DNA from: Crossaster papposus
Taxonomy: Eukaryota > Echinodermata > Asteroidea > Velatida > Solasteridae
Assembly: GCA_037893245.1 (NCBI GenBank)
Contig: JBAIAA010000021.1
Coordinates: 434,001 to 498,000 of the forward strand
DNA length: 64,000 nucleotides
Direction of reading: 5' to 3'
The position numbers and the translations under genes were made by a program. This document shows, piece after piece, positions 293 to 62,733 of the stretch (the first letter of the stretch is position 1; every line of letters starts with the position of its first letter). The notes beneath the pieces are model-generated. The model was not told the DNA's origin and searched no databases. It worked only from the letters and a program-made list of their open reading frames with translations.

Positions 293-356
293 GAGCAAGG
301 CAGGATTTGAACCTGCTACCTCCGGATCTGTGCTCTACTAACTGAGCTATCTTACC
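293..356 (-). repeat. tRNA-like SINE head or tRNA pseudogene
   Basis: Read on the minus strand this has a tRNA D arm (GCTCAGTTAGTAGAGC) and a T arm (GCAGGTTCAAATCCTGC). The stretch between them is about 8 nt too short to form a full anticodon arm, so it cannot fold as a working tRNA. The most similar sequence is the longer tRNA-like unit at 593-664. It is best read as the tRNA-derived head of a SINE or a decayed tRNA copy. Confidence 0.6.
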
Positions 357-1639: not shown

Positions 1640-2510
1640 CGTGCAATAACCTGAATAGGGCGGGCGAGGGATCGATCCGCCATTATTGTTGCTTGGTCGT
1701 TCGAGGTTGTTTTGCCACCCAAAAGAAAGAACTCCTTGAATCGATTCGGGGAGGAGAAAGTCAACAAAAAAAGCAAAGTCACGTGGTCAGAAAAAAAAGT
1801 CTTGTTGGTCGCCCGAAAACTATTCAAGGTCTAGAAAAATAAATGACGCGATAGAAAAGCTTTACAGGAAGCTTATTGCCAACTCTGACACTAACTTGAG
1901 CATGTGATTGGAAACCGAACGATGTATTGCTTATCCCTGATGACAGTGCTGAACCCATCAATTCCAATACGAATAAATATCCACACACCCAAGGGGGTTA
2001 GGGTTATAAACACAACGGTGATTTCTTCAAAGTTCAAATCTGCGATGGCCCTGTAGCCAAATATTTACCCATCTGCCCCACTAGGGGCAATACAAAATGG
2101 AAGCAATATCACGACAAGCATTTTAAACATCATCGCTCAAGCTTTACTTCTGTACTCGAAGCTGTGCCACGCAAAATTACCTCTCAATCTCATTATATTC
2201 AATATCGTTGACAGTTCGTGTTGTCATTTTTAAAGCTATAATATTAATGTAAAGACTCCTCCTTATAGACGATTTTTTACTCTGACATTCTCATTTCTGT
2301 TTTGAGAATGGAATCAACGAGGGTGAAAATGATATGAATGCATATGCAATCCCCCGATTGTTCGTGACTTTATTTGGCGTTGCATGACGACAATTAAATA
2401 AAATTAATGAATAGTGCACCTAAGCGCTTAACGTTTATCCAGAATCTCACAGACCGATGAGGTTATCAGCTTACGATAAAACATCAGCCAATCAAAGGCT
2501 ACGGTTAGTA
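1640..2510. repeat. FReD upstream repeat, copy 1
   Basis: Non-coding segment directly upstream of the FReD gene. Its parts recur at 15369-15560, 15990-16440 and 17615-17990. The last 80 bp, including the words CAGAATCTCACAGACCG and ATCAGCCAATCAAAGGC, recur before the second FReD copy at about 58414-58500. It is therefore either a duplicated host segment or an old interspersed repeat that travelled with the gene. Confidence 0.7.
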
Positions 2511-2893
2511 ACAGCGGGAATATTGATCAATTACTAGCCACTGACGTGAATGACGTACACACTTGGATAACCAATCAAAGAAAATAAGAAATGCACGTCG
2601 TCTGCTCCAACCCATTTCTTTCTGTAAACTATACCAAGTCCAACCATCGCCAGGCCTCTGTATTGCAGGAGCAGAGCATCCCAGCATTTGTACAGAGAGG
2701 ACAGCAGCCGAAAGCAGTACGGCTTGACTTTTAGACGTTGGACAACCATTGTGGATAGTTCAATCAGACACGACAAATCGCTAGATTTTCTCGCCCGATT
2801 TCAACAGTAATACTTTGCGCACATTATACAAAAAGAAATAAAACAAACTGAGATCGACGTTAAGTCATGTGATTTTAGCGAATCTCTTAAGTA

Positions 2894-3940
2894 ATGGAAG
2901 CAATGGCGAAACCGACCTTTACTGGGTTGCAACTATTTCCCATAATATTCATCATAAGTCAGGGAGCTACTTCGTCGGTATCTGGATGTGAAACTTCTTT
3001 TGCAGGGAAACATGCGTTTTATGCCGCAGAAAATCGCGCCCTGAAAGGGTTTGCGTTTGCAACCAAAATTGTACGATCTCGTGTCATCTGCGGACGTGAA
3101 TGCAGCATGGATCAACATTGCAAATCTGTTAACTTTAATGACTGCAGTAACATGTGCGAGTTAAATCTTGCCATAAGACGGCAGCATCTCGACTACTTCA
3201 ATGCAACTCAAGGGAGCGTGTACTTTGATGCAGATGAGGACACATCTCGCTACTCACTGGCTGATAGTTCCTTGAATCGCTACAGAAGTTGCACGATGCT
3301 CTTAGATGCTGGTTATCGTTCAAGCGGTATCTACACAATCTACCCAGAGGGATTCTGCAATGGCGGTGTTCGTGTCTACTGTGACATGGAAACTGACGGC
3401 GGGGGATGGATCGTGTTTCAGAGGCGACAAGATGGCAGCGTAGACTTCTACCGTGACTGGGCCGACTACCAGTCTGGCTTTGGCAATCTGTCCGGTGAGT
3501 TCTGGTTGGGAAATGACAACTTGGTGACTCTGACGTCTGATGATTCACGTGGATCACGGGAGCTACGAGTTGACTTAGAGGACTGGGACGGTAACACGGC
3601 ATGGGCAAAGTACTCAGATTTCCACATATCACCGGGTGAGTACAATCTGACCTATGACCAATACGATGCAAGCAGCACTGCCGGTGACTCTCTTGGGTAT
3701 CACAGAGGGCGTCCCTTTACGACAAAGGATCGTGACAATGATGATAAACCAGAAAGTAATTGTGCACAAATGTGGCCAGGAGCCTGGTGGTTTAATGGGT
3801 GTTATTGGTCTCATTTGAATGGTGAATATTACCAATATGAGAATCCCGGTGATACCAAGGGCGTACAATGGAGTACATGGAAACCGCGTGATTATTCTTT
3901 GAAAGCATGTAGCATGAAAATGCGTAAAATTGGACCTTGA
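2894..3940 (+). CDS. Secreted PAN/apple plus fibrinogen C-terminal domain protein
   Basis: Predicted secreted 348-residue lectin-like protein, intact in one exon. Residues 1-30 are a signal peptide with hydrophobic core LQLFPIIFIISQG. Residues about 32-120 form a PAN/apple-like module with six cysteines (32, 66, 70, 76, 84, 88). Residues about 131-345 are a fibrinogen C-terminal domain with the hallmarks CNGGVRVYCDMETDGGGW, VFQRRQDGSVDFYRDW and the calcium and ligand region TTKDRDNDD followed by NCAQ and GAWWFNGCYWSHLNG. The pair C290/C303 matches the conserved FReD disulfide. Potential N-glycosylation sites are NAT (103), NLS (199) and NLT (251). Family members (ficolins, tachylectins, intelectin-like FReDs) bind acetylated sugars on microbes; that role is inferred here. 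The start was chosen because it gives the signal peptide; a second ATG lies three codons in. A Tc1-like MITE begins 34 bp after the stop, so the 3' UTR and poly(A) signal must lie in or beyond it. A decayed paralogue is at 58876-60389. Confidence 0.9.
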   Translation: MEAMAKPTFTGLQLFPIIFIISQGATSSVSGCETSFAGKHAFYAAENRALKGFAFATKIVRSRVICGRECSMDQHCKSVNFNDCSNMCELNLAIRRQHLDYFNATQGSVYFDADEDTSRYSLADSSLNRYRSCTMLLDAGYRSSGIYTIYPEGFCNGGVRVYCDMETDGGGWIVFQRRQDGSVDFYRDWADYQSGFGNLSGEFWLGNDNLVTLTSDDSRGSRELRVDLEDWDGNTAWAKYSDFHISPGEYNLTYDQYDASSTAGDSLGYHRGRPFTTKDRDNDDKPESNCAQMWPGAWWFNGCYWSHLNGEYYQYENPGDTKGVQWSTWKPRDYSLKACSMKMRKIGP

Positions 3941-20010: not shown

Positions 20011-20022
20011 TAATGTTAAGAC

Positions 20023-20640
20023 TTGACTGCAAATGTAACTGCGACTGGCTCCTCTGACTGCGACTGGTGCCTTCGACTGCGGCTGGCTCTTGCGACTGCG
20101 ACTGTGGTTCCTGCGACTGCGACTGCGGCTGGCTCCCGCGACAGCGACTGGCTCCTGCGACTGCGACTGGCTCCTGTATCTGGTGCCTGCGACTGCGACT
20201 GGCTCTTGCGACTGCGACTGCGACTGCGCTTGGCTCCTGCGACTGCGACTGGCTCCTCCGACTGCGACTGGCTCCTGTGGCCGCGACTGTGACTGCCTTT
20301 TGCGACTGCGACTAAAAACTGTGACTGCGACTGGCTGCTCTGACTGCGACTGGTGCCTTCGACTGCGGCTGGCTCTTGCGACTGCGACTGTGGTTCCTGC
20401 GACTGCGACTGCGGCTGGCTCCCGCGACAGCGACTGGCTCCTGCGACTGCGACTGGCTCCTGTATCTGGTGCCTGCGACTGCGACTGGCTCTTGCGACTG
20501 CGACTGCGACTGCGCCTGGCTCCTGCGACTGCGACTGGCTCCTCCGACTGCGACTGGCTCCTGTGGCCGCGACTGTGACTGCCTTTTGCGACTGCGACTG
20601 ATTCTTGCGACTGCGACTGATTCTTGCGACTGGCTTAGAG
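20023..20640. repeat. GCGACTG array with 286-bp higher-order unit
   Basis: Built from GCGACTGCGACTGGCTCCT-like monomers. Two near-identical 286-bp super-units follow each other (about 20023-20308 and 20309-20594) and then decay into shorter monomers to 20640. All apparent open frames here (CDCDW- or ATATGS-rich) are translations of the repeat. Confidence 0.85.
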
Positions 20641-24489: not shown

Positions 24490-25867
24490 ACGCCCACAAG
24501 TTGCAAAACAATGAAAATTACTATGCACAACAAAGTTTTCGTTCATCAGTAAATCAATTATTTTAACAGTATATTTCTCAATCAAAGTATTCACATATTC
24601 TTTAAACTCTAAACTTTCATTTACACTTAAAATCCAACTTCAAAGTTCCCAAGGTTTTTCCAAATAGAAGCAAAAACTAAGTTTATGACAGCACGTAAAC
24701 ATTACCTACTTTCATTGATAAAACTTATTGATGTCACCCTCATAAATATTCATGACCGAAGTCACGGCACTAAGCAGACGAAAAACATAGACAAATTGGT
24801 AATTGAATCCCTGCTCAATGTTCTTCCTAAAAACTTAACTAAAAGACTGAATTAGATAGAAATTAACTCAAGACAACTTTCTAGTATATAAATTATAAAT
24901 TCTATAGTCTAAACCAAGAAATAATCCTTTAAAACTTGGAACCAATCCGTATCGACTTTAGAGATTCAGAAGGCAGCCATCTTGGATTTAGAAAACCCTA
25001 TTTTTAGAACACATTATAAACACGTGCAAACAGCTGACATGTATCGTGTATCATGACGGTTGGTAAAATCTATTTCGAATTCTAGCGATAAAATATGGTA
25101 TTAAACAGTCATAATCTAATCTAAAGGATGTAATCTAAGGTGAGCTTGTCCAGATATAAAGGTGAGTTTTAGGAAAATGACCAGGGGGGCATTTTCGTCA
25201 CACATGGAACACCTTTTCCCCAATGCAGCAGTATTCTCCGGGACTGTTCAGACTTGGGTATTTCCCCATGTAGTAGTTTGCTGCCTCCGAAATCAGCTCT
25301 CTCCAAACCACAACCTTCTTTCCCGATGAAATATGTTGTAGCACCCGTGGACTCTGCAGAAGGCCTGAACACTGACAACAAAGTGCACGGCCTAGCTATT
25401 GCCCCCCCCCCAAAAAAAAAAACACCAAAAAAACAACAACAACAACAACAACAATTGCACAAAGCAAAATTAACTCACGTTATTGAAAATTGCACAAATT
25501 TGGAAATAGATCTCACAGAAAAAGTAATGTGTGGGCAGGCCTAGGTCAGCTACTCACAACGGGTGCCTATTTAGGGATAAAGCAACGTTCAGCCAACACA
25601 ACAACAGCGTGGCCGAGCCTTGGCTGTGCAATACTTAACAATACAGATCATATGTGTGTACACGAACACATAACGACAGTTGCAGTTGGGGGAAATAAAG
25701 CATGCATGCAATGATATCGATAAGAGAAGAAAAACCATGTCAATTGTATAGACGGTGTATGTGTTGCTTGGTAAAGTACCGGTACTGGAATAAATCGCGT
25801 ATTTTGTCACGAAAGGATTAAACCACAGCCAAATTAATAGACTGCTATACATAGACCCTATCCCACC
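24490..25867. other. Intergenic, little recognised
   Basis: AT-rich. 25169-25440 has a minus-strand open stretch with plausible protein composition (RADFGGSKLLHGEIPKSEQS) but no clear splice sites, so no exon is called. Contains a C/A tract and (CAA)n at about 25401-25452. Confidence 0.35.
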
Positions 25868-26413
25868 ATAACACGAGAAGCACGCTCGAACGCGCACTTA
25901 TATTATCACTGGTAAATGGAATCAATGCCACACAAAACGTTACGTGGGTACCAGGGAAATTGTAGCGAGCATAGTTAGACCTTTAGCGGCTTCGTCATAA
26001 TAATAGTCCAGGAAAAATACGTTTTGACCTCAAACAAATTGCAACAGATTGTTTTTCACCACAGTGCACTTCTATAAGGTCCCTAGAATGACATACTAAA
26101 AATCTACAAAAATCCAAGTGGTGGAAATATGACTAATTTGCATAAATCGTTAATCCCTGCCACGTAATATATGTATTCCCATATTTGGGTATATATATAT
26201 ATTTTTCATTTTTTGAAAAGTTTATTTTGGTGATTATACTTACATATCCTTACTTTAATAACATTTTTCCTGGACTATTATTATGACGAAGCCGCTAAAG
26301 GTCCAACTATGCTCGCTACAATTTCCCTGGTACCCACGTAACGTTTTGTGTGGCATTGATTCCATTTACCAGTGATAATATAAGTGCGCGTTCGAGCGTG
26401 CTTCTCGTGTTAT
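25868..26413. mobile_element. Foldback element with 151-bp arms
   Basis: 25868-26018 and 26263-26413 are reverse complements at 150 of 151 positions (one difference, TAGTTAGACC versus TAGTTGGACC). They enclose a 244-bp AT-rich spacer. The outer tip is ATAACACGAGAAG. No coding sequence. The right tip coincides with the TTA target of the palindrome that starts at 26413. Arm identity implies recent formation or gene conversion between the arms. Confidence 0.85.
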
Positions 26414-28594
26414 GGCCCTGTCACACCAGACCATTTTAGGCCAACGCGTGAGTAACGTGTTGTAATTTTGGCAACATGCTGGCAAACGCTGACCAACGCT
26501 TGGCCAGCGTTAGCAACACGCTGAGCGCGTTACTCACGCGCTGGGACATGCTGTCACACGCTGAGGAAAACATATTTGTTTCAACATAGATACAATTTCC
26601 AGCGTTTGCCAGCGTGTGACCGCACACGCTGGCAGAGCGTTGGAGGTTTGTTACTCACGCGTCGAACACGCTAGACGATCGTTATCAACCCGCTACTCAT
26701 ACGCCGGCGCACGCTGGCGTACGCTGGCGTACTCTGGCGACACGCTGGTTATGGCCCTGTCACCCCAGAACGTTTTAGGCCAATGCATGAGTAGCGCGTT
26801 AAAAATAGTTGATACGCTGGCAATCGCTGAACTTTCACAGAAAAAGTCAAGTGGAACCGTGATTTCAGCCTGTCCATACAGATTGGTAACGGGTTCATAG
26901 CGTATGCCAGCGCGTGAGTATCGTGTGAGGAACGCACTAAGCGTGTGAGGAACGTATCACTGATTTATAGTAAAAATACGACAGCGGGTTGCCAGCGTGT
27001 GAGTAGTGGGTTGGTAACGATCGTCTAGCGCGTTCGACGCGTAAGTAACGACCACCCTGCGCGCCGCCAGCGTGTGCAGTCACACGCTGGCAAACGCTGA
27101 AAATTTTAGGTATGTTGAAAAATGTATTTTTGCCTCAGCGTGTTCCAGCGTGTTCCAGCGTGTGGGTAACGCGCTTAGCGTGTCGCGAACGCTGGCCTAG
27201 CGTTGGTCAACGTTTACCCGCGTGTTACCGATATTCCAACACGTTGGCCTAAAACGTTCTGGTGTGACAGGGCCATTAGTGTAGTAGCGCGTCAGCTTTT
27301 TATACAACTAACAATGTGGTCGTTGCAGTACGCTGGCGCGCGTTGAAACGCGCTACTCACGCGCTGGGCAGTCATTTATCAGTCGTCGAGCGCGTTACTA
27401 ACGCGTTTATCACGCGCTGGCGAACGCATTGAACCCGTTAACAACGCGTTATGGACACGCTGAAATCACGGTTCCACTTGACTTTTTCTGTAGAAGTTCA
27501 GCGTTTGCAGCGTATCAACTATTTTTAACGCGCTACTCACGCGTTGGCCTAAAACGTTCTAGTGTGACAGGGCCATAATGGCTGGCAAACGCTGAACTTC
27601 CACAGATAAAGTCAAGTGGAACCGTGATTTCAGCGTGTCCATAACGCGTTGTTAACGGGTTCAACGCGCGCCAGCGTACTGCAACGACCACATGGTTAGT
27701 TGTATAAAAAGCCGACGCGCTACTACACTAATGGCCCTGTCACACCAGAACGTTTTAGGCCAACGTGTTGGAATTTCGGTAACACGCGGGTAAACGTTGA
27801 CCAACGCTAGGCCAGCGTTCGCAACACGCTAAGCGCGTTACCCACACGCTGGAACACGCTGGAACACGCTGAGGCAAAAATACATTTTTCAACATACCTA
27901 AAATGTTCAGCGTTTGCCAGCGTGTGACTGCACACGCTGGCGGCGCGCGGGATGGTCGTTACTCACGCGTCGAACGCGCTAGACGATCGTTACCAACCCA
28001 CTACTCACACGCTGGCGACCCGCTGTCGTATTTTTACTATAAATCAGTGATACGTTCCTCACACGCTGAGCGCGTTCCTCACACGATACTCACGCGCTGG
28101 CATACGCTATGAACCCGTTATCAATCTGTATGGACAGGCTGAAATCACGGTTCCACTTGACTTTTTCTGTGAAAGTTCAGCGATTGCCAGCGTATCAACT
28201 ATTTTTAACGCGCTACTCATGCATTTGCCTAAAACGTTCTGGGGTGACATGGCCATAACCAGCGTGTCGCCAGAGTACGCCAGCGTATGCCAGCGTGCGC
28301 CAGCGTGTAAGTAGCGGATTGATAACGATCGTCTAGCGTGTTCGACGCGTGAGTAACAAACCTCCAACGCTCCGCCAGCGTGTGCAGTCACACGCTGGCA
28401 AACGCTGGAAATTGTATGTATGTTGAAAAAAATATGTTTTCCTCAGCGTGTGACAGCATGTCCCAGCGCGTGAGTAACGCGCTCAGCGTGTTGCTAACGC
28501 TGGCCAAGCGTTGGTCAGCGTTTGCCAGCGTGTTGCCAAAATTAAAACACGTTACTCACGCGTTGGCCTAAAATGGTCTAGTGTGACAGGGCCA
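26413..28594. mobile_element. 2.2-kb palindrome: two inverted copies of a nested MITE
   Basis: Flanked by TTA on both sides (26410-26412 and 28595-28597). Copy 1 is 26413-27575 and copy 2 is 27579-28594; they are inverted relative to each other and separated by TAA. Each copy is an outer MITE (termini TGGCCCTGTCACACCAGA) interrupted by an inner MITE of the same family: 26752-27277 flanked by TTA, and 27732-28255 flanked by TAA. Copy 2 has lost about 65 bp next to its inner-facing terminus. The interior is dense in self-complementary words such as ACGCGTGAGTAACG and CCAGCGTGTG. The uninverted single form is at 47218-48376. Open frames here are repeat artefacts. The 3-bp TTA/TAA duplications point to PIF/Harbinger mobilisation. 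Confidence 0.85.
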
Positions 28595-28597
28595 TTA

Positions 28598-43670: not shown

Positions 43671-46197
43671 TACCCCTGTCACACCGGAGCTACGCTGCCG
43701 TTGCGCTCCCACGGCGACTAAAAAAATGCAGTAGAAGCGCAGTATGATCGCCAAGAGCGTAGTGGGAACGTAGTGGAGTCTACCTAGGTCGTGGAAGGGT
43801 CTCCATGGTCGCCTAACCTCGGCGATTGTTTTGAGCCTGCTCAAAACAATCGCAGAGGGTCGGCGACCTGGTCCAAAACACAGTGAGAGCGTAGTGGGAT
43901 CTCAAAGAACGTACTACGGACGTAGTGAAGTCTACCTGATACCCCCGTCACACCGGACTGGCGTCCTTACTGCGTCCTAAAATGGAGGACGTCGATGGTC
44001 GCCGTGAGAACTCCAATCCTTTTTCTTTAAAATATCAAGATTTCGGTCACCCGTCACACCGGGATCCTGTGCTCCGCGATCTGTACGTCTACTCGGCGTC
44101 CCCATGGCGTTCTCACCACGACCTTACCGCGTCCTTGGCGTTTCTATTGAGTTTGCACGGCGTCCCCACGGCGATCATCGGCGACCTCACGGCGTTTTTG
44201 GCGTTTCTACCACGACCTTACCGCGTCCTTGGCGTTTCTATTGACGTGGTGGGGTCGTGGTAAGAACCCCATAGACGTGGTAAGGACGCAGTAAGGTCGC
44301 CGCGGGGTCCACGATCCATTTATTCGCGTCTCCACGGCGACCCTACCACGTCCATACTGCGTCCCTAGGGCGTCCTTCGAGTTCCTACTGCGTTGCTACG
44401 GCGACCATGGCGAACCCAGGGCGATCCTACCGCGTCCTGAGCCAGGACGCCAAACCTCGGCGTTTACTTTGAACATGTCCGAAGTAAACGCCGTCGCTCT
44501 GCGACCTTCGGCGTCCTTGGGGTCCTAACGGCGTCCTTCTGCGTTCTCACCACGACCCCGCGGCGTCCATGGCGTCCCTACCGCGTCCTGGGTCGTCGTA
44601 GGAACGCAGTAAGGACGCCAGTCCGGTGTGACGGGGGTATGAGCGTGTCATGATCGTAGCAAGAGCGAGTTGGTATCGCCGTCTGCCCAATCTGCGACTG
44701 ATACCCCTGTCAGACCGGTGTGCAATCCCACAGCGACCTTACTGCGATGCAGTTTTCATCAAAAACGCAGTGGGGTTGCCAACAAATCCTGAAATCTATG
44801 AGGTAGGTAGCTCACAATACGCTCTTGAATCGCTCACTGCGCTCTCACTACACTCTCACTGCGACCTATGCGTTCCCAGTTTGATCATCGCCGCGCTCTC
44901 ATTGCGCTCCCACTACGCTCTACGCGATCTCGCTGCGACCAAGGCGACCTCGCTACGACCTCGCTACGACCTTACTACGCCCTCACTACGTCCCCACTAC
45001 GTTCTATGCGTTTGTACCGCGTTCGCGCGGCGACTATAAATACAGCGAGCTCGATGTTGCTGGATATTTGCTATCTGTTGTACAATTATTGTGTTCTGCC
45101 TCTCTACATCCATGGTAAAGAGGAGATGTACATTAGTATGTTGTGTGGAGGATATAGGCTGCATTTATACCATTTGTGGCCATTAGGCATGTAAAAGTCA
45201 GAACGTACAATACACGCAGTATAATCGCAGTATAATCGCATTGTGAACGTACAGGAAGCTCCGTAACATCGCCATGGACGCATTAGGGGCGCCATAGTCG
45301 TACTGGCAGCCCCATGTGGACGCAGTATGAGCGTGAAGAAGCCCTATACGACGTAGTAGAAGCGCAGTATGAGCGCGGTAAGAGCGTAGTGAGAGCGTGA
45401 CAAGCGTACAGTGGTCGTACTTCAGACGTACTTCAGTCGCAGATTGGGCAGACGGCGATACCAACTCGCTCTTGCTACGATCATGACACGCTCAGGTAGA
45501 CGTCACGACGTCCCAAGTACGTTCTTTGAGATCCCACTACGCTCTCACTGCGCTCCCACTGCGTTTTGGACCAGGTCGCCGACCCTCTGCGATTGTTTTG
45601 AGCAGGCTAAAAACAATCGCCGAAGTTTGGCGACCATGGAGACCCTCCCACGACCTAGGTAGACTTCACTGCGTTCCCACTACGCTCTTGGCGATCCTAC
45701 TGCGCTTCTACTGCGTTTTCCAACTTTTTTTAGTTGCCGTGGGAGCGCAACGGCAGCGTAGCTCCGGTGTGACAGGGTTATTACCACGGCTGTAGAGAGG
45801 CAGAACATAATAATTGTACAACAGATAGCAAATATCCAGCAACATCAAGCTCGCTGTGTTTATAGTCGCCGCGCGAACGCGGTACAAACGCACAGAACGT
45901 AGTGGGGACGTAGTGAGTGCGTAGTAAGGTCGTAGCGAGGTCGTAGCGAGGTCGTCTTGGTCGCAGCGAGATCGCGTAGAGCGTAGTGGGAGCGCAGTGA
46001 GAGCGCGGCGAGGAACGCATAGGTCGCAGTGAGAGCGTAGTGAGAGCGCAGTGAGCGAGTCAAGAGCGTACTGTGAGCTACCTACCTCATAGATTTCAGG
46101 GTTTTTTGGCCAGTTTTCGGCGACCCCACTGCGTTTTTGATTAAAACTGCATCGCAGTAAGGTTGCCTTGAGATCACACTCCGGTGTGACAAGGGTA
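43671..46197. mobile_element. Composite of three TACCCCTGTCACACCGG-type MITEs
   Basis: A 2527-bp insertion flanked by TAA (43668-43670 and 46198-46200); the paralogue at 10010 has a single TAA in TATCTAAGCTA. Z: left end 43671, right end 45780 (TCCGGTGTGACAGGG). V: left end 44702, right end 46197, partly outside Z. W: 43940-44639, wholly nested. Interiors are dense in GCGTAGTGGGAGCGCAG-type words in both orientations. All open frames within are artefacts of this repeat. 3-bp duplications suggest PIF/Harbinger mobilisation. Confidence 0.8.
43940..44639. mobile_element. Nested 700-bp MITE W
   Basis: Termini TACCCCCGTCACACCGGAC and its complement, flanked by TGA on both sides (43937-43939 and 44640-44642). 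The opposite arm of Z (about 45490) preserves the unoccupied sequence, reading inversely CTACCTGAGCGTGTCATG. Confidence 0.85.
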
Positions 46198-47217: not shown

Positions 47218-48376
47218 TGGCCCTGTGACACCAGAACGTTTTAGGCCAACGCGTCACGGAGTAGCGCGTTAAAAATAGTTAATACGCTGGCAAACGCTGA
47301 ACTTCCACAGACAAAGTCAAGTAGAACCGTGATTTCAGCGTGTCCATAACGCGTTGATAACGGGTTCATAGCGTTTTCCAGCGCGTGAGTAACGCGTTAG
47401 AAACGCGCTTGACAACTGATGAACGACTGCCCAGCGCGTGAGTAGCGCGTTCCAACGCGCGCCAGCGTACTGCAACGACCGCATGATTAGTTGTATAAAA
47501 AGCCGACGCGCTACTATAGTAATGGCCCTGTCACACCAGAACGTTTTAGGCCAACGCGTGAGTAACGTGTTGGAATTTCGTCAACACGCGGGTAAACGTT
47601 GACCAACGCTAGGCCAGCGTTTGCAACACGCTGAGCGCGTTACCCACACGCTGGAACACGCTGTCACACGCTGAGGCAAAAATACATTTTCCAACATACC
47701 TACCATTTTCAGCGTTTGCCAGCGTGTGACTGCACACGCTGGCGGCGCGCAAAAAGGTCGTTACTCACGCGTCGAACGCGCTAGACGATCGTTACCAACC
47801 CACTACTCACACGCTGGCGACCCGCTGTCGTATTTTTACTATAACTCAGTGATGCGTTCCTCACACGCTGAGCGCGTTCCTTACACGCTACTCACGGACT
47901 GGCATACGCTATGAACCCGCTATCAACCTGTATGGACACGCAAAAATCACGGTTCCACTTGACTTTTTCTGTGAAAATTCAGCGATTGCCAGCGTATCAA
48001 CTATTTTTAACGCGCTACTCATGCATTGGCCTAAAACGTTCTGGTGTGACAGGGCCATAACCAGCGTATCACCAGCGTACGCCAGCGTGTGAGTAGCGGG
48101 TTGATAACGATCGTCTAGCGTGTTCGACACGTGAGTAACGAACCTCCAACGCGCCGCCAGCGTGTGCAGTCACACGATAGACAAACGCTGGAAATTGTAG
48201 ATATATTGAAAAAATATGTTTTCCTCAGCGTGTGACAGCGTGTCCCCGCGTGTGAGTAACGCGCTCAGTGTGTTGCTAACGCTGGCCTAGCGTTAGTCAG
48301 CGTTTACCAGCTTGTTGCCAAAATTACAACACGTTACTCACGCGTTGGCCTAAAACGTTCTGGTGTGACAGGGCCA
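47218..48376. mobile_element. Nested MITE, single-copy form
   Basis: Outer element 47218-48376 with termini TGGCCCTGTGACACCAGA and TCTGGTGTGACAGGGCCA; inner element 47523-48057 of the same family flanked by TAA on both sides (47520-47522 and 48058-48060). Removing the inner element restores a continuous outer MITE of about 620 bp. Same arrangement as each half of 26413-28594. Confidence 0.85.
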
Positions 48377-52882: not shown

Positions 52883-53818
52883 TCAAATACCTAAATTAAG
52901 GGAGACGGATAACCTGTCTTTCATACTGTCTTCAATGTAACCATCCTTAGCTGTTTCAGATCCCCATCGCCCATGTTTCTTAAACAGCCTGTCAGGTACC
53001 CCAACAGTAGCTGCAGCAGATGCACCGCCGCTACGTAGGCTATGTAGACCAAACTTCCTAGCCTCTAAGCCTACAGAGGAAAGGGCATTTCTGAACAATT
53101 CTAAACATCTAGTGTAAGATAAGTGACCAGAACGTAATTTATGTGAATTACTGGTTTTAAAATAGGTGAGGGGCCTAAACAGGAAATCTTCATCGGTGTC
53201 TGAACTCAACCCAGCTGCAGACAAATACCGTCTTAAAGCCATAATAGGACAGGTTGGAGTACCTGTAGCACCGACTAGAACCCAGGCGCCCTGTCTGTAT
53301 ATGTCTGTCTTACTTTTGCTGATGAAGATGTTCACGTGGGAGACAAAAAGCTGCAGGTCGCATATGCGAATGTTAATAAGTTCGTCGTGACGAAGGAAAC
53401 CTGTATAAGCTAATAAAATCATAGCACACAACCTTATCTCAATCAAATTATCAGAAGCACCATACTTGGCGATAATAGCTTTCAGCATGTCAGGAGTAAC
53501 TGGTTCCTTTTTTACTATAGGTTTATGCAACAGTTTCTTCAATCCTTGAAGAACAATATGTAAAAATCTAGAGTCACAAGGATTGTGACACACTACTGGG
53601 TTGCAACCATAACGCCATTTAATAGCATAAAAACTGGATTCAATTTTAGAGTATGGAGCGTTATCTTGATAAAGGTACATAAAATATCGACTGATGTCCT
53701 CAGTCCTTGGTGGGACTTGAGTTACCATGTTACGGCGACACCAATCCTCCCAACCTGCAAAAGCTCGATCGTACTTATATACAGTGTTCTGCAAGCACTT
53801 CCGCCAAAATCGAATCAT
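52883..53818 (-). CDS. Tyrosine recombinase part of the Ngaro-like element
   Basis: An open region of 311 codons. It shows the tyrosine recombinase signature: an arginine in LLAYTGFLRHDEL, the HSLRSGGASAAA box (H-x-x-R) and HGRWGSETAKDGYIE with the late His and nucleophilic Tyr. In the family this enzyme integrates a circular DNA copy without making a target duplication. Fossil element; not presented as functional. Confidence 0.85.
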   Translation of the reverse strand: MIRFWRKCLQNTVYKYDRAFAGWEDWCRRNMVTQVPPRTEDISRYFMYLYQDNAPYSKIESSFYAIKWRYGCNPVVCHNPCDSRFLHIVLQGLKKLLHKPIVKKEPVTPDMLKAIIAKYGASDNLIEIRLCAMILLAYTGFLRHDELINIRICDLQLFVSHVNIFISKSKTDIYRQGAWVLVGATGTPTCPIMALRRYLSAAGLSSDTDEDFLFRPLTYFKTSNSHKLRSGHLSYTRCLELFRNALSSVGLEARKFGLHSLRSGGASAAATVGVPDRLFKKHGRWGSETAKDGYIEDSMKDRLSVSLNLGI

Positions 53819-54378
53819 ATCCTTTTATATGGGAGGATCTGCAAATATAAAATAAACAAGATGTTTGTTCCACAAACACGAAACTTCTGGGAATATGAAT
53901 ATAAAAAATATAATTAATTAATAAATTAAAAAAGGATTATTTCATCCTCAGTGTATCCATTATACATGCTAAATCATCTCAAAGATCCAAGCGGTGTGTA
54001 AACTTAAAATTATCGGCTTTGTCAACGAGTATGACCTAGCCATCCAGTATAGCCACTGTATTGTGCTATCCAGCTATACAGCTGTTGTATGTAATCATAC
54101 GGCTCTATTTTCTATCCAGGCGGCTTAACCACTTAGCCAAACGGCTGGTATCTGCCCTTGCTACGACTCTTCTGTGTAGCCAATCAGCTTCAAAGTATTG
54201 GCCAAACGGCTTCATTATCTAGCCATGCGGCTCTGTTATCTGGCCAAGCGGCTAGTGTTTTGTCAGCGGCTCTACATTATAGCCATGCCTCTAGCAAAAA
54301 CGCTGTTCTACAACAGAATCGTTGCCAATTGAGTGGACTAAAATATGCAGTTTGGCTGAAACAATCAAAACTAGGAAC

Positions 54379-56453
54379 TCAAGAGTTCCCTAGTCTCCAG
54401 CACAAAACTGAGCTAGAAAATGTAGATGACCCAAAAATAGAATTTTGATTACGTCCATGAACGAAAATATTTGTGGGGTCCTGGAATCGGATCACATTTG
54501 AAACGAGTAGACTAAAACTACTGTACTCGGAAAACAAAAGTGGCCAAAACGGAGCCGATGGCCACTCTGGTACCACTAGCGTACCCACAGCAGAACATGC
54601 TTGTATATGCTTTAATACGTCACCGACCCGGTTAATAGGGGGCACCAACCAATTGTTATCCCCATTCCAATTAGTGGAAAAGGCATCTACCCTGTTAGAA
54701 TTAGGACACAGGAACTTTGAATTGAATACTGGTAATTTGGTATTAAGTTCATCCGCAAATCTATCAACTGTATGTGGCCCCCACAAATTATCAATGAAGT
54801 GAAAAAATTCTTGGGAGACACCCCAGTCGTCAAAGTCAATATCTCGACTAAGACCATCGGCCAGTGTGTTACGCTCTCTGGGGATCCATTGTACCTGTAG
54901 TGTAATCTTATTACGCCTACAGAAGTTGAAAATGTCTAAACTCAAACTATGCAATTCTGCAATCATACTTCCTTTGAAGACAATTGCTACAACACCTTTG
55001 TTGTCTGTGAACAGCTTCACTATCTTACCATACAAATTTGGCGCAAATGCTCGCACCGAGAGGTCCACTGCCTTCAATTCCCTCCAAGTCGAACTTTTCA
55101 AACTTTCTTGTGGGCTCCAATTTTTTTGAAGCTTCATGCTTTCGCAGTTTGACGACCAAGCTCCACAGCCAGTCTGACTGGCATCACAAAATGCAATAAC
55201 CTGAGGAACGGAATATTCAACAAGCATACGCTTAACGCTTATTAAGAGAACATAATTCATTTTTCCAAAAGAACATTTCTTCTACAACTTTGCTATCTTT
55301 CTGTAGACTGTACACTTTATCCCAATGTGTTCTAGTGATAACCTCATGGTACATGAACCTGGACTTCAATTGGGAAATAGCTCCGACTACAGGGGAAAGA
55401 GATGTAATTTTACCTGCCAAGGAAGCAATCTGCCTAGCAGAAACCTTCGGCAGAGATGTTTGAAATGAATCAATACATTTAAAAATATCAACAACCCGTC
55501 TTTGGGTGACTTTGATTGAACCTTCAATACCATTCCAAGTAATTCTCAACCAATCTAAGGCCTGTACTGGGTCCCACTGGGACTTCTCTTTGTCGGGAAC
55601 CAATCCTGCTGACAAGAGATCAACCTTGACAGATTCGGCAACATGCAAACAGGACTCCCTGAAATTTGTTCAATAAGACAATAAAATAACCTTTCGAACG
55701 CCAGTGCTGAACCAGTGGCCTGAGGCATTTAGTAAATATAAATGGAGCAGTTGACAGGCCAAACGGCAAAACATGAAAAGAGAAATACCTGGTTCCAAGG
55801 CCGAAGTCCCAACCAAAGCTGAGGAATTTGGTATGGTCTGGAAATATTTCAATATGGTGATACCCCGACTTGAGATCGAAGGTAAAAAGAAAATCACCTT
55901 GCTTAAAATAACTTAAAGCCTCATTCCAGTCTTCAAAGTGCACTTTCTCTTTCCAAAGAAACTGGTTCACAATTCTGAGATCTAAAATCAAGCGTAGTTT
56001 ACCCGAGGTTTGATTAGAAACTGACAGCGGATTAACAATGTGTGGAACATGAGAACATTCAACGATCAAACCTTTGTCAAGCAAATCTAAAATAGCTTCT
56101 GAAACAAAGGATGAATGCGATAAAGTAGACTTATTGTTCTTATACAATCCTGTAGGGGGAGTCTCAATAAATGGTAATTGATAACCAAGTTGGATCACAT
56201 TTAGAACATGCGAGGAAGCCCCAATGTCTTTCCAAAACTTTAGCGATGCACGGAGTCTGCCTTTAACAATAGGCTCGGAATTGCCTTGCTCATAATCATA
56301 ATAATTGTTCTGAAAAAAATGTGGGTCGTACCCTGAAGTACCCATAGGTGAAGCGCTGTGACCGGCCGGATCATGGCAACTTGTACTGGTACTTGAACTT
56401 GGAGCACCGACTGAAAAATATTCACTGGTAGTATGTTCCCTGCAAGGATCCAA
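54379..56453 (-). pseudogene. Reverse transcriptase and RNase H part of the Ngaro-like element
   Basis: The minus strand shows RT motifs (GKLRLILDLRIVNQFL, TFDLKSGYHHIEIFPDHTKF and VLPFGLSTAPFIFTKCLRPL) and RNase H-like motifs (VIAFCDASQTGCGAWS, KLFTDNKGVV, ERNTLADGLSR). Several reading frames are involved; the region is broken. Confidence 0.75.
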
Positions 56454-56846
56454 TGTTGTTGGATAAAGGGAGTCTGAAAGGTCGACAGGAGTAGAAGAAG
56501 TTTATACAAACCAAGATATAAGATAATTGTGAAACGGAACTTTTTAAGACCATTTCATTGAATAATGTGAGCAACAATATGGGTTTTGCAATACATACGT
56601 ACACACTAATAATGAATAGATGAAATTATAGCTTTCATCAGAAATATCTACGACGATATTGGTAGAATTCTTATTGGCATGGCACTGTAATGCACAATTT
56701 CGAATACTCGTTAAATTGTGATCATGATACAATTTGTATACAGTAACAAGAATTTTACCCCATCACGAAACATCCGTCTCCGGTTAAGGGAAAAACATAT
56801 TCATGCGTTAATTTCATCGATACAATGTATAGACTTCCATGAGAAA

Positions 56847-57257
56847 CTAATTACCCGAGTTAGAAAAATACTGGTCTCTGCTAATGCCAGCGCTGCTGGG
56901 TATAAGCGCCGCCATCTTTGCTGAATGAAGATGCATTTGATTGCTTCGGGCCTGGGCAATTTCTCCTCCAGTGCCCAGCTCTGCCACAGGCAAAGCATAG
57001 GTCGGTAGGTCTAGAGCCGCTAGCTGCGGGCCATCCTTGGGTAGCTGACTGGTTATACCCAAACGCATATCTATTTCGTGGTTGATTTGATCCACGAAAA
57101 ATAGAGGGGTCAGCAGAAGTAGCAGCACGATCCACGAGACGGCCGCGTTTGGGGGCACTTGACTGGCGAGAGGACTTGCCACGGCGCTTCTTAACAGCCC
57201 TGGCTTGGGCCTGACGGATGCGTTTCTCATCCTCGGAGTCGGATGCCAAGTCGTCAC
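56847..57257 (-). pseudogene. Zinc-knuckle (gag-like) part of the Ngaro-like element
   Basis: The minus strand has basic residues (VKKRRGKSSRQSSAPKRGR) followed by the zinc knuckle CFACGRAGHWRRNC (CX2CX4HX4C), as found in nucleocapsid regions of retroelements. Confidence 0.75.
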
Positions 57258-57451
57258 TAATATACTCCTCTACGGCCGTCCAGCCTAATAGTATTATACC
57301 ATTGATACAAAATTGTGAAATACATAGGTTAAATTACAAAACCTCAGCAAATGTTGGTTATTCAAGGGGAGATTAGTAATGACGCATTAATGCAGTCATC
57401 GACGCTAGTTGACGATTCTCGTATCCTATTTTCATTTCATTTTAACACCCA

Positions 57452-57937
57452 CTAACCTGCGTCCGACTTGTCGGCAAGTCGAATAAGTTTGTTGCGTTTT
57501 TTCAGCTCTGCCACGCCCTCAGCAATGGCGTCTTTAGCGCGGATTTGCTTACCCTGGTCCAGAAGAGACTCGGCGGACTCCAATTTTTCCAGCAAGGAAG
57601 AATTAAACTCAAATTGTGCCCGATTTCCTTTAAATCTAAAAGAAATCTCAGCTGATCTTTTGAGATGTTGCAACTCGTGCGTAGCCTCGGTTAGCTTTTT
57701 TTCGTTCTCGTCTTTGAGATCCGACATGGAAGCTACGAAAAACTCTTTTAACGAGTTGACTGCTTCCTTAACTGTATCGCCTACCACAACCGCCGTCAAA
57801 GGAGGCACGTTTGGGGCCGTGCCGGGTACACTACCGATGGGGATAATACCGGCAGTTGAGGCTTGTAAGTTAGGTTGAATGCGATTTTTCTCAGACATAA
57901 TTCGGGATATGTCGTGTATACAGAGCGCGGAAAGCAA
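57452..57937 (-). CDS. Gag-like coiled-coil part of the Ngaro-like element
   Basis: About 150 residues with a helical, charged region (DLKDENEKKLTEATHELQHL) and the stretch RSAEISFRFKGNRAQFEFN, which is typical of the first open region of DIRS-group elements. Role inferred from position and composition. Confidence 0.6.
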   Translation of the reverse strand: MLSALCIHDISRIMSEKNRIQPNLQASTAGIIPIGSVPGTAPNVPPLTAVVVGDTVKEAVNSLKEFFVASMSDLKDENEKKLTEATHELQHLKRSAEISFRFKGNRAQFEFNSSLLEKLESAESLLDQGKQIRAKDAIAEGVAELKKRNKLIRLADKSDAG

Positions 57938-58084
57938 GATGTCCGTCAGTTGCGTGTTGAACTCGGTCAGTGGCGTGGTCAGTGAATACCTTCGTTATTC
58001 ACCACGGACCAATGCACTCTAACAGTACCTGCAAAGTATACTGTTATGCAAATCGGTCAGTCTGCTACCTATTGAAAATATATT

Positions 58085-58413: not shown

Positions 58414-58875
58414 ACGTTTAACGTTTATCCAGAATCTCACAGACCGGTGAGGTTATCAGCTTACGATAAAACATCAGCCAATCAAAGGCTACGGTTTGTA
58501 ACAGCGGAAATACTGACCAATTAATAGCCACTTACGTGAATGACGTACTCACTTAGATGACCAATCATATAGAATGAGAGATACACGTCGTCTGCCTCAA
58601 CCCATTCCTTTCTGTAAACTATACTAAGTCCAACCATCGCCAGGCCTCTGTATCACAGGAGCATCCTAGCATTTTGTATAGAGAGGACAGCAGCCGAAAG
58701 CAGTACGGCTTGACTTTTAGTCGTTGAACAACCATTGTGGATAGTTCAATCAACCACGACAAATCGCTAGATTTTCTTTCTGTGATTTTCACTATGTGGC
58801 GCACATTATACAAAAACAAATAAAACAAACTGAGATCGACGTAAAGTCATCTGATTTTAGCGAATCCTTTAAGTA
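58414..58875 (+). repeat. FReD upstream region, copy 3
   Basis: Collinear with 2430-2893 up to the FReD start codon (shared GGACAGCAGCCGAAAGCAGT and CGACAAATCGCTAGATTTTC), showing that gene and promoter region were duplicated together. Confidence 0.8.
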
Positions 58876-59347
58876 ATGGAAGCAATGGCGAAACTGACCT
58901 TAACTGGGTTGCAACTATTTCACATAATATTCATAATATGTCAGGGTGCTACCTCGTCCCTCTCTGGATATGAAACTTCTTATGCAGAGAAACATGCGTT
59001 TTATGCCGCAAAAAATTGCGCTAAGAAGGTTTGCGTTTTTAACCAAAAATGTACGATCTCGTGTCATCTGCGGACGTGAATGCAGCATGGATCGACATTG
59101 CAAATCTTTTAACTTTAATGACTGCAGTTAAATGTGCGAGTTGAACCTTGCCATAAGACGGCAGCATCTCGACTACTTCAATGCAACTCAAGGGAGCGTG
59201 TACTTTGATGCAGATGAGGACACACCTCTCTACTCACTGGCTGATAGTTCCTTGAATCGCTACAGAAGTTGCAAGATGCTCTTAAATGCTGGTTACTGTT
59301 CAAGCGGTATCCTCACAATCTACCCAGAGGGATTCGGCAATGACAGT

Positions 59348-59526
59348 CTGTAGGGGAATTTTCTAGAAGTTGAACAAATCACAAAAGATGGCGTCGCTTT
59401 GGTTGAAATGCTCACGAAAACACGATGATCCGAAACAGTCAGAATGTCACTTTCTTGAGGCAACTTATACTTATACGTTTCAGAAAGAGGCGAATACAAA
59501 AATGTGCCTGGTTGCTACAAGTCTTT
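59348..59526. mobile_element. Insertion 1 in the second FReD copy
   Basis: About 179 bp absent from the first FReD gene, lying between GGCAATGACAGT and TTTCTACTGTGAC. Edges read CTGTAGGGG and CTACAAG; family not identified. Confidence 0.55.
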
Positions 59527-59577
59527 GTTTCTACTGTGACATGGAAACTGACGGCGGGGTGGATCGTGTTTTATAGG

Positions 59578-59789
59578 CAGAGTTGTATTCGAGTCCCTGC
59601 AAGTCCTCCTAAAAGTCCAGTCACAAGTCCTTTCATAAAGCCAGTCATAAGTAACTGGTTAAACAATGACAAAGGAATGCTTTTGTCAAAGCTCATTGTA
59701 GTAGCTTGTGATTTGAATTGGAACTGGAGGACTTGTGATGGACTTGGAGGGACTTACAGGGACTTGTGATGGACTTGACTACATCCGTG
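59578..59789. mobile_element. hAT-like MITE in the second FReD copy
   Basis: A 212-bp element starting CAGAGTTGTATTCGAGTCC and ending GACTACATCCGTG, with AGTCC / GGACT words throughout. The 8-bp flanks are TTTATAGG on the left and TTTAGAG(G) on the right, the right flank later split by the next insertion. 8-bp duplications and CAG termini fit hAT. Confidence 0.65.
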
Positions 59790-59796
59790 TTTAGAG

Positions 59797-59982
59797 TAGT
59801 CTTGTTTGCAAGACGATGTAATATGCAGCGCGCGTAGGCCGCCGATGCGGGCGTCCTCTAACGTACGCCGTACCATGGCCATACACTCAATGACCTTCGA
59901 TAACGAAGGTCATTCGCGCGTGATCTACAGCGTACGTTAGAGGGCGCCCCGCATCGCGAAGATCGTCTTGCAAACAAGACTA
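59797..59982. mobile_element. MULE-like foldback MITE in the second FReD copy
   Basis: A 186-bp element with perfect 21-bp ends (TAGTCTTGTTTGCAAGACGA and complement) and an exact 9-bp duplication TGTTTAGAG (59788-59796 and 59983-59991). A second inner inverted repeat (GCGTACGTTAGAGG) makes it a near-complete hairpin. 9-bp duplications are typical of Mutator-like elements. Confidence 0.75.
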
Positions 59983-60389
59983 TGTTTAGAGGCGACAAGA
60001 TGACAGCGTGGACTTCTACCGTAACTCACTGGACCGACTCCCAGTCTGGCTTTGGCGATCTGTACGGTGAGTTCTAGTTGGGAAATGACAATTTGGTGAC
60101 TTTGACGTATGGATCATGGGAGCTACAAGTTGATCTACGGGACTGGGACGGTAACACGGCATTGGCAAAGTACTCAGATGTCCATATATCACCGGGTGAG
60201 TACACTCTGAATTATGACCATTACGATGCAAGCAGCACCGCCGGTGACTCTCTTAGGTATCACAGAGGACGTCCCTTTACGACAAAGGATCGTGACAATG
60301 ATGATGCACCAGAAATTAATTGCGCACAAATGTACACAAGAGCCTGGTGGTTTAATCGGTGTTTTGTGTCTCATTTGAATGGTGGATAT

Positions 60390-62733
60390 TGTAACGCGAC
60401 AGAGGGCGCTAGCACGGCGCGACAAGGCGATTATAGTTTACGGTTGTACGCGTTAGCATGGCAGCGATAATGTCTTATACAGCGATCATGCTCCGCCCAG
60501 CGTACACTGATTGGACAGTATGGGTCCCTGCTCTCCTTATGTATAGCGCGAACAGCGCAAGTACAAGGCTTGTTTGCATACATAAGTGTTCCCGCCATGT
60601 TGGGGATAAACTGGCTATTGCCGACGCAAGGGAGTTTGGACTTCCGTAAGCTAAGGTTATGTGTCAACGGTGAAAGGTTAAAATGCACAGGGAGTTTTGG
60701 CAAGCAGTTTATTGGCCGAGTAATGGTGACAAAGACTACGGAGATACCGCTGGGTCACGAAACCATTGTTTTAGGAACAGTCGGCCAATGGGAGGGACTG
60801 ACAGGACCCGTGATTGTGGAACAAGTCGAGTCTGGTGGTCGGCTTGGTGAGAAGGGCCTTATTATGGCTAAGGCTTTGATTGATGTGCCGACAGAATTTG
60901 TGCCCATTCGGATACTGAACCCAAATAGAGAAAAACGAGTCCTGCAGGTTGGGACCCTGGCTGCAACTGTTTCGCCTGTCAATGTAGAAACACTGCCCTC
61001 TCGTGGCAGTGGGGATACATTGAAAGTAGAGTCGCTTCCTAGTCATTTCAGCGATTTGTATGAAAGGAGCAAAAAGAATTTGGATCCTCAAGATCCTGTA
61101 AAGTTGAGGGAATTTTTGGTGGAATACCAAGATGTGTTTTCCGACGGTAATGATGATATAGGCCATACGGATGTAGTGGAACAAACCATCAACACTGGTG
61201 GCGCTAGACCAGTAAATCAAATACCCCGGAGGCACCCCGTTTGCAACAAGCAGGAAAAAAATCATCAGATGGACGACTTAAGCCGTGTTCGCACTGGATA
61301 AACATTTTGGGTAATTTGACCATGACGCCGGGTAACATTCCGATGGGTTGATCTTCCCACCGTCCACACTTGGATTTAATTGACGCGGGTAGAATTGCCG
61401 AGACGATGGGTAAACTAACCGAGCTGGCTCCAAAACAATAAAGAGGGCGCCCTGCGTGACCTATGACCGCGACTTGACGACCGGATCGTCTGTTCCCGAC
61501 GCTAGCTCTCAACATTATTTTCTTCGTTCAAGTCATTCGACCAAGTGATGGAAGATTTAACCGAGACGTCGCGTCCGCACTGAATTTTCTGGCTCGGTTA
61601 AAATGACCTGGTCAATCTTCCCGGGCACCTTTGGGTAAGTTACCTGTGAGGAAAGTTACTCGGGCTGTCCGCACTGGACTTGAAATGGGCAAGTTACCCA
61701 TTGGCTCGGTTAGTTTGCCCAAATTAAGTCCAGTGTGGACAGGGCTTAAAAGAGGCGTGGTTTAATTGAGCCATCCGATAGCTCATGGGCGGCCAACGTT
61801 GTGTTAGTGAAAAAGAAAGACGGTTCAAAACGACTATGCATCGATAACAGAGGTTCGAATGCAGTAACAATTAAAGACGCTTATCCTGTTCCGCTCGATG
61901 CGCTAGAGGGCGCTCAGTGGTTCTCTACCCTTGATCTGGCATCCAGGTACTGGCAAGTAGCCCTGGATAAGGATGCTGAACAGAAGTCAACATTCCTAGT
62001 GCGGAATGGGTTATATCGGTGGAAAGTTATACCATTTGGCTTGACCAACGCACCTTCCACGTTTGAACGTCTAATGGAAAAGGTGTTAGCAGGACTGCAG
62101 TGGGAAATGCTATTAGTCTACCTGGATGACGTCATCGTTTTTTGTAAAACGGTCGAGTATGAGTTGGTACGGCTGCGCAGATTGTTTGAGCGTTTAAAGA
62201 GTGCTATACTTAAGCTAAAGCCCAGTAAATGTTACCTCTTTCAGAGGTCGGTGACTTACTTGGGCCATATTGAATCGGCAGAGGGCGTTTCAACGGAACC
62301 CGCCAAAACCAAAGCCGTTGCTGATTGGCCAGTTCCGAAGAACGTCAAAGAAGTAAGAAGTTTCCTTCGAATGGCCTCGCTTCGAATTGTAGACGATTCA
62401 TTCGGGGCTTCGCAACCATTGCCAGCCCGCTGCATGCCTTGACATCGACGTCAAAGGAATTTATTTAGAATGATTCTTGTGAGGAGGCATTCGTCAGATT
62501 TCATAATTGACACGGATGCGAGTTCAGAGGGCATAGGTGCAGTTCTGTATTAGGTTCACGACGGTGTCGAAAGTGTTGTTGCTTATGCAAGCCGGAAGCT
62601 CAATAAAGCTGAAAACTTATACGGACAGAAGGTTCTGGTGAGGACAGACCACTCTTCCTTAAGATGGTTGACGAACATGAAGGGCCCGGAAGGTCAACTT
62701 GCACTTGGTTGGAGGTCGTGGCAGAGTATGACG
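60390..62733 (+). mobile_element. Ty3/Gypsy-like retroelement fragment A (fossil)
   Basis: Starts with an LTR edge TGTAACGCGACAGAGGGCGC and passes into pol-like sequence: a region between protease and reverse transcriptase (about 60600-61277), reverse transcriptase (about 61790-62440, with VVLVKKKDGS-like start and YLDD core in LLVYLDDVIVF) and RNase H remnants to about 62733. Gag, most of the protease and the integrase are absent. Broken: it is internally deleted, split by a MITE (61278-61749), and its frames are interrupted several times. Confidence 0.8.
61278..61749. mobile_element. MITE with TTAA edges inside Gypsy fragment A
   Basis: Edges TTAAGCCGTGTTCGCACTGG and CCAGTGTGGACAGGGCTTAA; interior rich in GGGTAA(A/G)CTAACC / GTTACCC words in both orientations. 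About 470 bp, non-coding. The same element occupies the same position in fragment B from 63730. Confidence 0.75.

Follow-up and report, generated by a model that had tools for sequence, protein, structure and literature searches.

An inverted dimer of a nested MITE in Crossaster papposus: a putatively transposed, PIF/Harbinger-like palindrome with an asymmetric centre

How does a genome come to carry, and to keep, a palindrome of some 2.2 kb in which each half is itself one MITE sitting inside another? The question is raised by a locus in a stretch of 64,000 nucleotides of Crossaster papposus DNA (hereafter the window, in its entirety). What lies there is a nested MITE in the form of an inverted dimer, whose parts are familiar and whose arrangement is unusual; Table 1 collects the coordinates.

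Table 1. Positions within the window of the dimer, its parts and the other composite.
Feature	Position	Strand	Length (nt)
Inverted dimer (palindrome), whole	26413..28594	.	2182
TTA, left copy of the dimer's putative target-site duplication	26410..26412	+	
TTA, right copy of the dimer's putative target-site duplication	28595..28597	+	
Left half, a complete composite (outer element split by inner element)	26413..27575	+	1163
Inner element of left half, orientation opposite to outer, TTA either side	26752..27275	-	524
Lone TAA separating the dimer halves	27576..27578	+	
Right half, a composite, inverted	27579..28594	-	1016
Inner element of right half, TAA either side	27732..28255	+	524
Asymmetric centre separating the 936-nt arms	27348..27659	.	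312
Single composite, the only other composite found in the window, edges TAC / TAA	47218..48376	-	
Inner element of single composite, TAA either side	47523..48057	+	535

The locus runs TTA, left half, TAA, right half, TTA, with identical flanks for the dimer as a whole and for neither half alone. This arrangement, in which inverted composites are separated by a single TAA and bounded on both outer edges by TTA, had been described in a first-pass annotation and can be read directly from the sequence (flank CTCGTGTTA, element start TGGCCCTGTC ... element end GACAGGGCCA, flank TTAGCAAGAG); TTA accounts for 2.7% of trinucleotides near the dimer. Each of the inverted arms (26412-27347 and 27660-28595) measures 936 nt; they lie 312 nt apart and are 97.2% complementary (E = 0.0), the differences between them comprising 26 substitutions and no gaps (2.8%). 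The arms thus bear out the description of two inverted copies, although the halves are unequal, at 1016 versus 1163 nt. A fold-back element (25866-26415; 153-nt arms, 99% complementary, 244 nt apart) adjoins the dimer on the left. Its right edge is the dimer's TTA target, its own duplication may be TA, and the match extends, perhaps fortuitously, three bases into the dimer.

Each composite is built in the same way. Read inward from its outer edge, the left half presents an outer end of type X, then the inner element, and finally an outer end of type Y with its edge at 27575. The X and Y ends have a terminal repeat in common and diverge further in; inner and outer elements of the left half are 81.9% identical at their X-type ends and 87.6% identical at their Y-type ends. 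In all three composites the inner element occupies the same site, lies opposite to an outer element of its own family and is edged by direct TTA/TTA or TAA/TAA. The terminal motif GGCCCTGTCA occurs in 11 copies at element edges, seven of them in the dimer and four in the single composite, when up to one mismatch in ten is allowed; three further matches in the window are unrelated. One might also read the composite as two interlocked fold-back elements, and the matching arms do interlock, yet this reading was rejected because terminal repeats at either end and direct TWA flanks come together in the middle segment alone, which leaves the simple reading of two like elements nested in opposite orientation.

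The dimer has the terminal inverted repeats and the lack of coding capacity that mark MITEs in general. Just two of its frames reach 90 codons (26565-26897 on the plus strand and 28110-28442 on the minus strand); neither has a Pfam match at E up to 0.01, and a coding function is not expected. The 64-kb window holds three composites at two loci, once at 47218-48376 and twice, inverted, in the dimer, just as had been proposed; a BLAST search of the window with the dimer (E up to 1e-5) finds these two loci only, and with them no lone, un-nested member of the family. The outer edges of the single composite, TAC and TAA, make an imperfect duplication.

Did the nesting occur once, or separately at each site? 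Trees were built from six X-ends (three inner, three outer) and five Y-ends (three inner, two outer), the right half's outer Y end being missing; one row carries one extra leading base, the dimer end having been set at 28595. Inner and outer copies separate with support of 100 in both trees, the left-inner and right-inner ends join at 97 and 92, and the left and right outer X-ends join at 99. The split between inner and outer copies shows that nesting was a single event, and that the composite, of ~1.16 kb, afterwards came to occupy two sites in the window as one unit. Between the flanks searched at the two loci, matches are short, reaching 64 columns at 83% at most, and do not fall at element edges, so that unrelated loci carry composites with matching inner and outer histories. 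The claims of the first-pass annotation that one MITE lies within another of its own family, and that the nested pair has since acted as one unit, thus stand on these trees.

The left half is 90.0% identical to the single composite when gaps are counted, with 80 mismatches in 1180 columns (~7% by substitutions). Against that single copy, the two halves of the dimer have in common 50 substitutions, a 20-nt indel and an 11-nt indel. A three-way alignment, with 186 gapped columns set aside, contains 918 columns that are alike in all three, the 50 in which left and right agree against the single copy, 3 in which all differ, and private columns numbering 20 for the left half and 10 for the right. 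Some of these private columns are misaligned at the right half's truncated end and some are flanking bases, and 6 left-right differences fall within the last 21 columns compared; for this reason the ungapped 26/936 is preferred as the measure of left-right divergence. With 2.8% between the halves versus ~7% between left half and single copy, the dimer would have formed after its lineage split from the single copy, unless arm-to-arm conversion has reduced the divergence. Patchy gene conversion between the arms was considered and rejected, the mismatches being distributed evenly along the arms (P = 0.81 for the largest gap and 0.64 for the variance).

Our preferred reading, to which we give a probability of roughly 0.58, is that a non-autonomous MITE of PIF/Harbinger-like (Tourist-like) type became an inverted dimer, moved here as such and lost its symmetry through later deletions. 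A composite at a donor site would have received, in the TAA duplicate at one of its edges, an inverted and near-identical second composite, giving composite-TAA-composite. Transposase supplied in trans would then have acted on the two outermost ends, both of the same type, and the dimer, at that point ~2.3 kb, would have moved to a TTA site with duplication of the TTA. Later deletions near the axis, of 86 nt and ~62 nt and both in one half, would have left an asymmetric palindrome that is easier to keep. Construction elsewhere, at a TAA site, is suggested by the axis itself, since in-place insertion into a TTA duplicate would leave TTA there.

Assembly at another site and arrival as one element is the weakest step of this scheme, and we hold it to be only somewhat better than an even bet. 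The mark of the dimer as a mobile unit is the direct TTA on both sides, three bases only, and there is one dimer in the window. What can be said against a jump as a dimer is that the evidence for it comes down to this three-base duplication plus one base, the TAA inside as opposed to TTA outside, and that sequential in-place insertion would account for the structure equally well had the axis undergone a T-to-A change. Moreover, the ends of the composite differ, so that a unit with two like ends may be a poor substrate.

Should the palindrome be credited to the genome at all? Long inverted repeats are prone to errors in assemblies, and an inverted chimera or collapse, arising in assembly or library, is an obvious candidate; the first-pass annotation had itself raised possible collapse. 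Ten of the 26 arm mismatches are CpG transitions, with 19.9% of sites in CpG (binomial P = 0.022), an excess of the kind that germline mutation, rather than sequencing error, should leave. These ungapped, CpG-rich substitutions between the halves, two deletions private to one half, the direct TTA flanks and the absence of mirroring in the flanks all disfavor collapse, and an artefact appears very unlikely. Fold-back replication or sister-chromatid fusion, events known to generate inverted duplications (PMC10622511 and PMC3315005, in the portions available), could in principle have mirrored the locus. Such a mirrored locus should show the left flank again beyond the right half, whereas a search with 25300-26412 finds nothing alike in the right flank (E up to 1e-3), and both breakpoints lie on element edges. 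Mirror duplication of the locus is disfavored by flanks that are not mirrored, and we accord this origin the least credence of any.

More serious is the proposal that the dimer was built where it now lies, a composite inserting at TTA and a closely related, inverted composite then inserting into the right TTA duplicate, with the central TTA subsequently mutated to TAA. No jump of a dimer is required, a single base separates TTA from TAA, and MITEs are said to insert commonly into members of their own family (PMC3695323, in the part available, citing Jiang and Wessler 2001). This route does demand a substitution at that very base, for which the left-right divergence suggests ~1-3%, and specifically to A; it also demands near-identical siblings, the window's only other composite being ~7% away by substitutions. 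We consider it doubtful, if the most credible of the rivals. Two excised or sister-chromatid copies might, on the other hand, have been ligated at the same terminus via a near-self-complementary TWA overhang and then integrated, which would account both for the one TWA at the axis and for the near-identical halves. Such an overhang is an assumption, and TTA is complementary to itself at two of its three positions only. The product has the same structure as insertion into a duplicate, from which the present sequence does not separate it; this ligation seems to us improbable.

The asymmetry of the centre stems from two losses in the right half. It lacks 86 nt internally, a stretch whose two ends each carry TTGAA in the left half, as well as ~62 nt (a hand count) at the axis, starting 3 nt from the axis TAA and taking with it the right half's axis-side terminal repeat. 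A copy that had inserted on its own should have required the lost terminal repeat, so the ~62-nt deletion most likely came after the dimer had formed. Both losses fall in the same half and within the central fifth (231/1163 nt), although with two events the clustering near the axis is weak (~0.2 x 0.2 = 0.04). The losses fit the center-break mechanism (Cunningham 2003, as cited in PMC3315005), in which an extruded palindrome suffers deletion at its tip, though a pair of events is a small sample. The 312-nt centre keeps an 84-nt inverted repeat and, as single-stranded DNA, is predicted to form a long hairpin (z-score -19, with 0/100 shuffles as stable), a result that only restates the inverted repeat. 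Because the centre still folds, the asymmetry has reduced the palindrome without abolishing it. The earlier expectation that so long a palindrome should be unstable is softened by the asymmetric centre and the 2.8% arm divergence.

The window holds repeats of other kinds as well. Nested inverted repeats with 11-bp tandem units occupy 43723-46110, perhaps another nested fold-back element (44885-45118/45781-46014 at 96%, 44778-44876/46012-46110 at 95%, and 43723-43899/45543-45719 at 93%), and an array of ~19-bp units at 20012-20632 is organized as two 286-bp copies, 98% identical. A dispersed duplication (2425-3830 and 58415-60390; four listed stretches, 90-93%) covers a frame with PAN and fibrinogen_C matches, the fibrinogen match being partial in the second copy. 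Its spacing grows by ~570 bases before the last stretch, which implies that the second copy holds an extra piece. On the minus strand, frames at 52886-57994 match a reverse transcriptase and, weakly, RNase H-like and Dam-like domains, with a clear phage-integrase-type match, and suggest a DIRS-like retroelement; the window contains reverse transcriptases and a DDE_3 fragment. A tRNA model match at 293-356 (minus strand; 30.9 bits versus an Rfam gathering threshold of 29), unreported by ARAGORN, is perhaps a tRNA-derived repeat.

To which superfamily does the element belong? Duplications of TWA typify PIF/Harbinger (PMC4482050, PMC2213677, in the text available), and two of three independent insertions here show one, namely that of the inner element (one event, present in three copies) and that of the dimer, the exception being the single composite with its TAC and TAA. 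If the duplication is TWA, the terminal repeat starts TGGCCC, whereas PIF/Harbinger terminal repeats usually, though not absolutely, begin with A or G (PMC4482050, same portion). By its TWA duplications the element would thus work like a Tourist-like member of PIF/Harbinger, its formal membership being tentative. Autonomous elements of the superfamily encode a DDE transposase and a Myb/SANT protein, and no partner of this sort was recognized when 30 of the window's 109 listed frames were scanned.

The interest of the locus lies in the readable order of events, together with a possible mobile palindrome; the parts and the process are of known kinds. One window offers a series running from nesting, through spread of the composite, to an inverted dimer and then to deletions near the palindrome's centre. 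A bolder suggestion, which we regard as speculative and rather unlikely when taken whole, is that the dimer is itself a mobile family, in which MITEs inserting into their own target duplications give rise to symmetric elements of growing size, from solo through nested to palindromic dimer, with every stage able to jump by its outermost ends and with one-sided deletions at the axis letting the palindrome survive. If there are other dimers in the genome, self-insertion into target duplications can make large transposing palindromes, and these would also be natural examples of genomes defusing a palindrome.

The terminal and subterminal sequence has no match in viral contigs or in prokaryote genome contigs, which is what animal DNA should give. 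A literal literature search with the terminal motif returned only mouse stem-cell and embryo topics, to judge by titles and abstracts, and a combined query for nested palindromic MITEs returned no match. Among the matches listed, as far as their available text goes, nested MITEs appear and an inverted dimer of a nested composite does not. A MITE with ends from two subfamilies is described in the accessible part of PMC1562414, which, like PMC9179366, has no bearing on the dimer.

The closest kin are the Tourist-like MITEs (PMC2836001, PMC2213677, PMC3695323), which in the available portions of these reports are likewise non-coding, with terminal inverted repeats, TTA/TAA duplications and same-family nesting; precise excision and a 9-bp target preference are also described (PMC2836001). 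In what those portions cover, the present element stands apart by its TGGCCC start, by a nested composite as the spreading unit and by an inverted dimer whose axis carries a single TWA. Like our dimer, double Ds of maize, of the hAT superfamily, combines two elements of the same family in inverted orientation, with extra ends. Double Ds is mentioned, and nested Ds is described as chromosome-breaking, in the available text of PMC3260210. The dimer differs in its superfamily and in adding nesting to a head-to-head arrangement. In coral CMITE-IN, too, a MITE inserted into a pre-existing element gives a new, apparently mobile composite, one that, unlike this dimer, has piggyBac-like TTAA and a MITE flanked by direct repeats, with no inverted dimer in the part of the source available (PMC2872659). 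The Atlantic cod elements gadMor-hAT-1784 and -8043 are also nested or tandem, palindromic, non-autonomous and >1 kb, and as described in the accessible text (PMC12368964) they differ from this dimer in belonging to hAT, in their internal tandem units of ~167 bp and in their location at inversion breakpoints.
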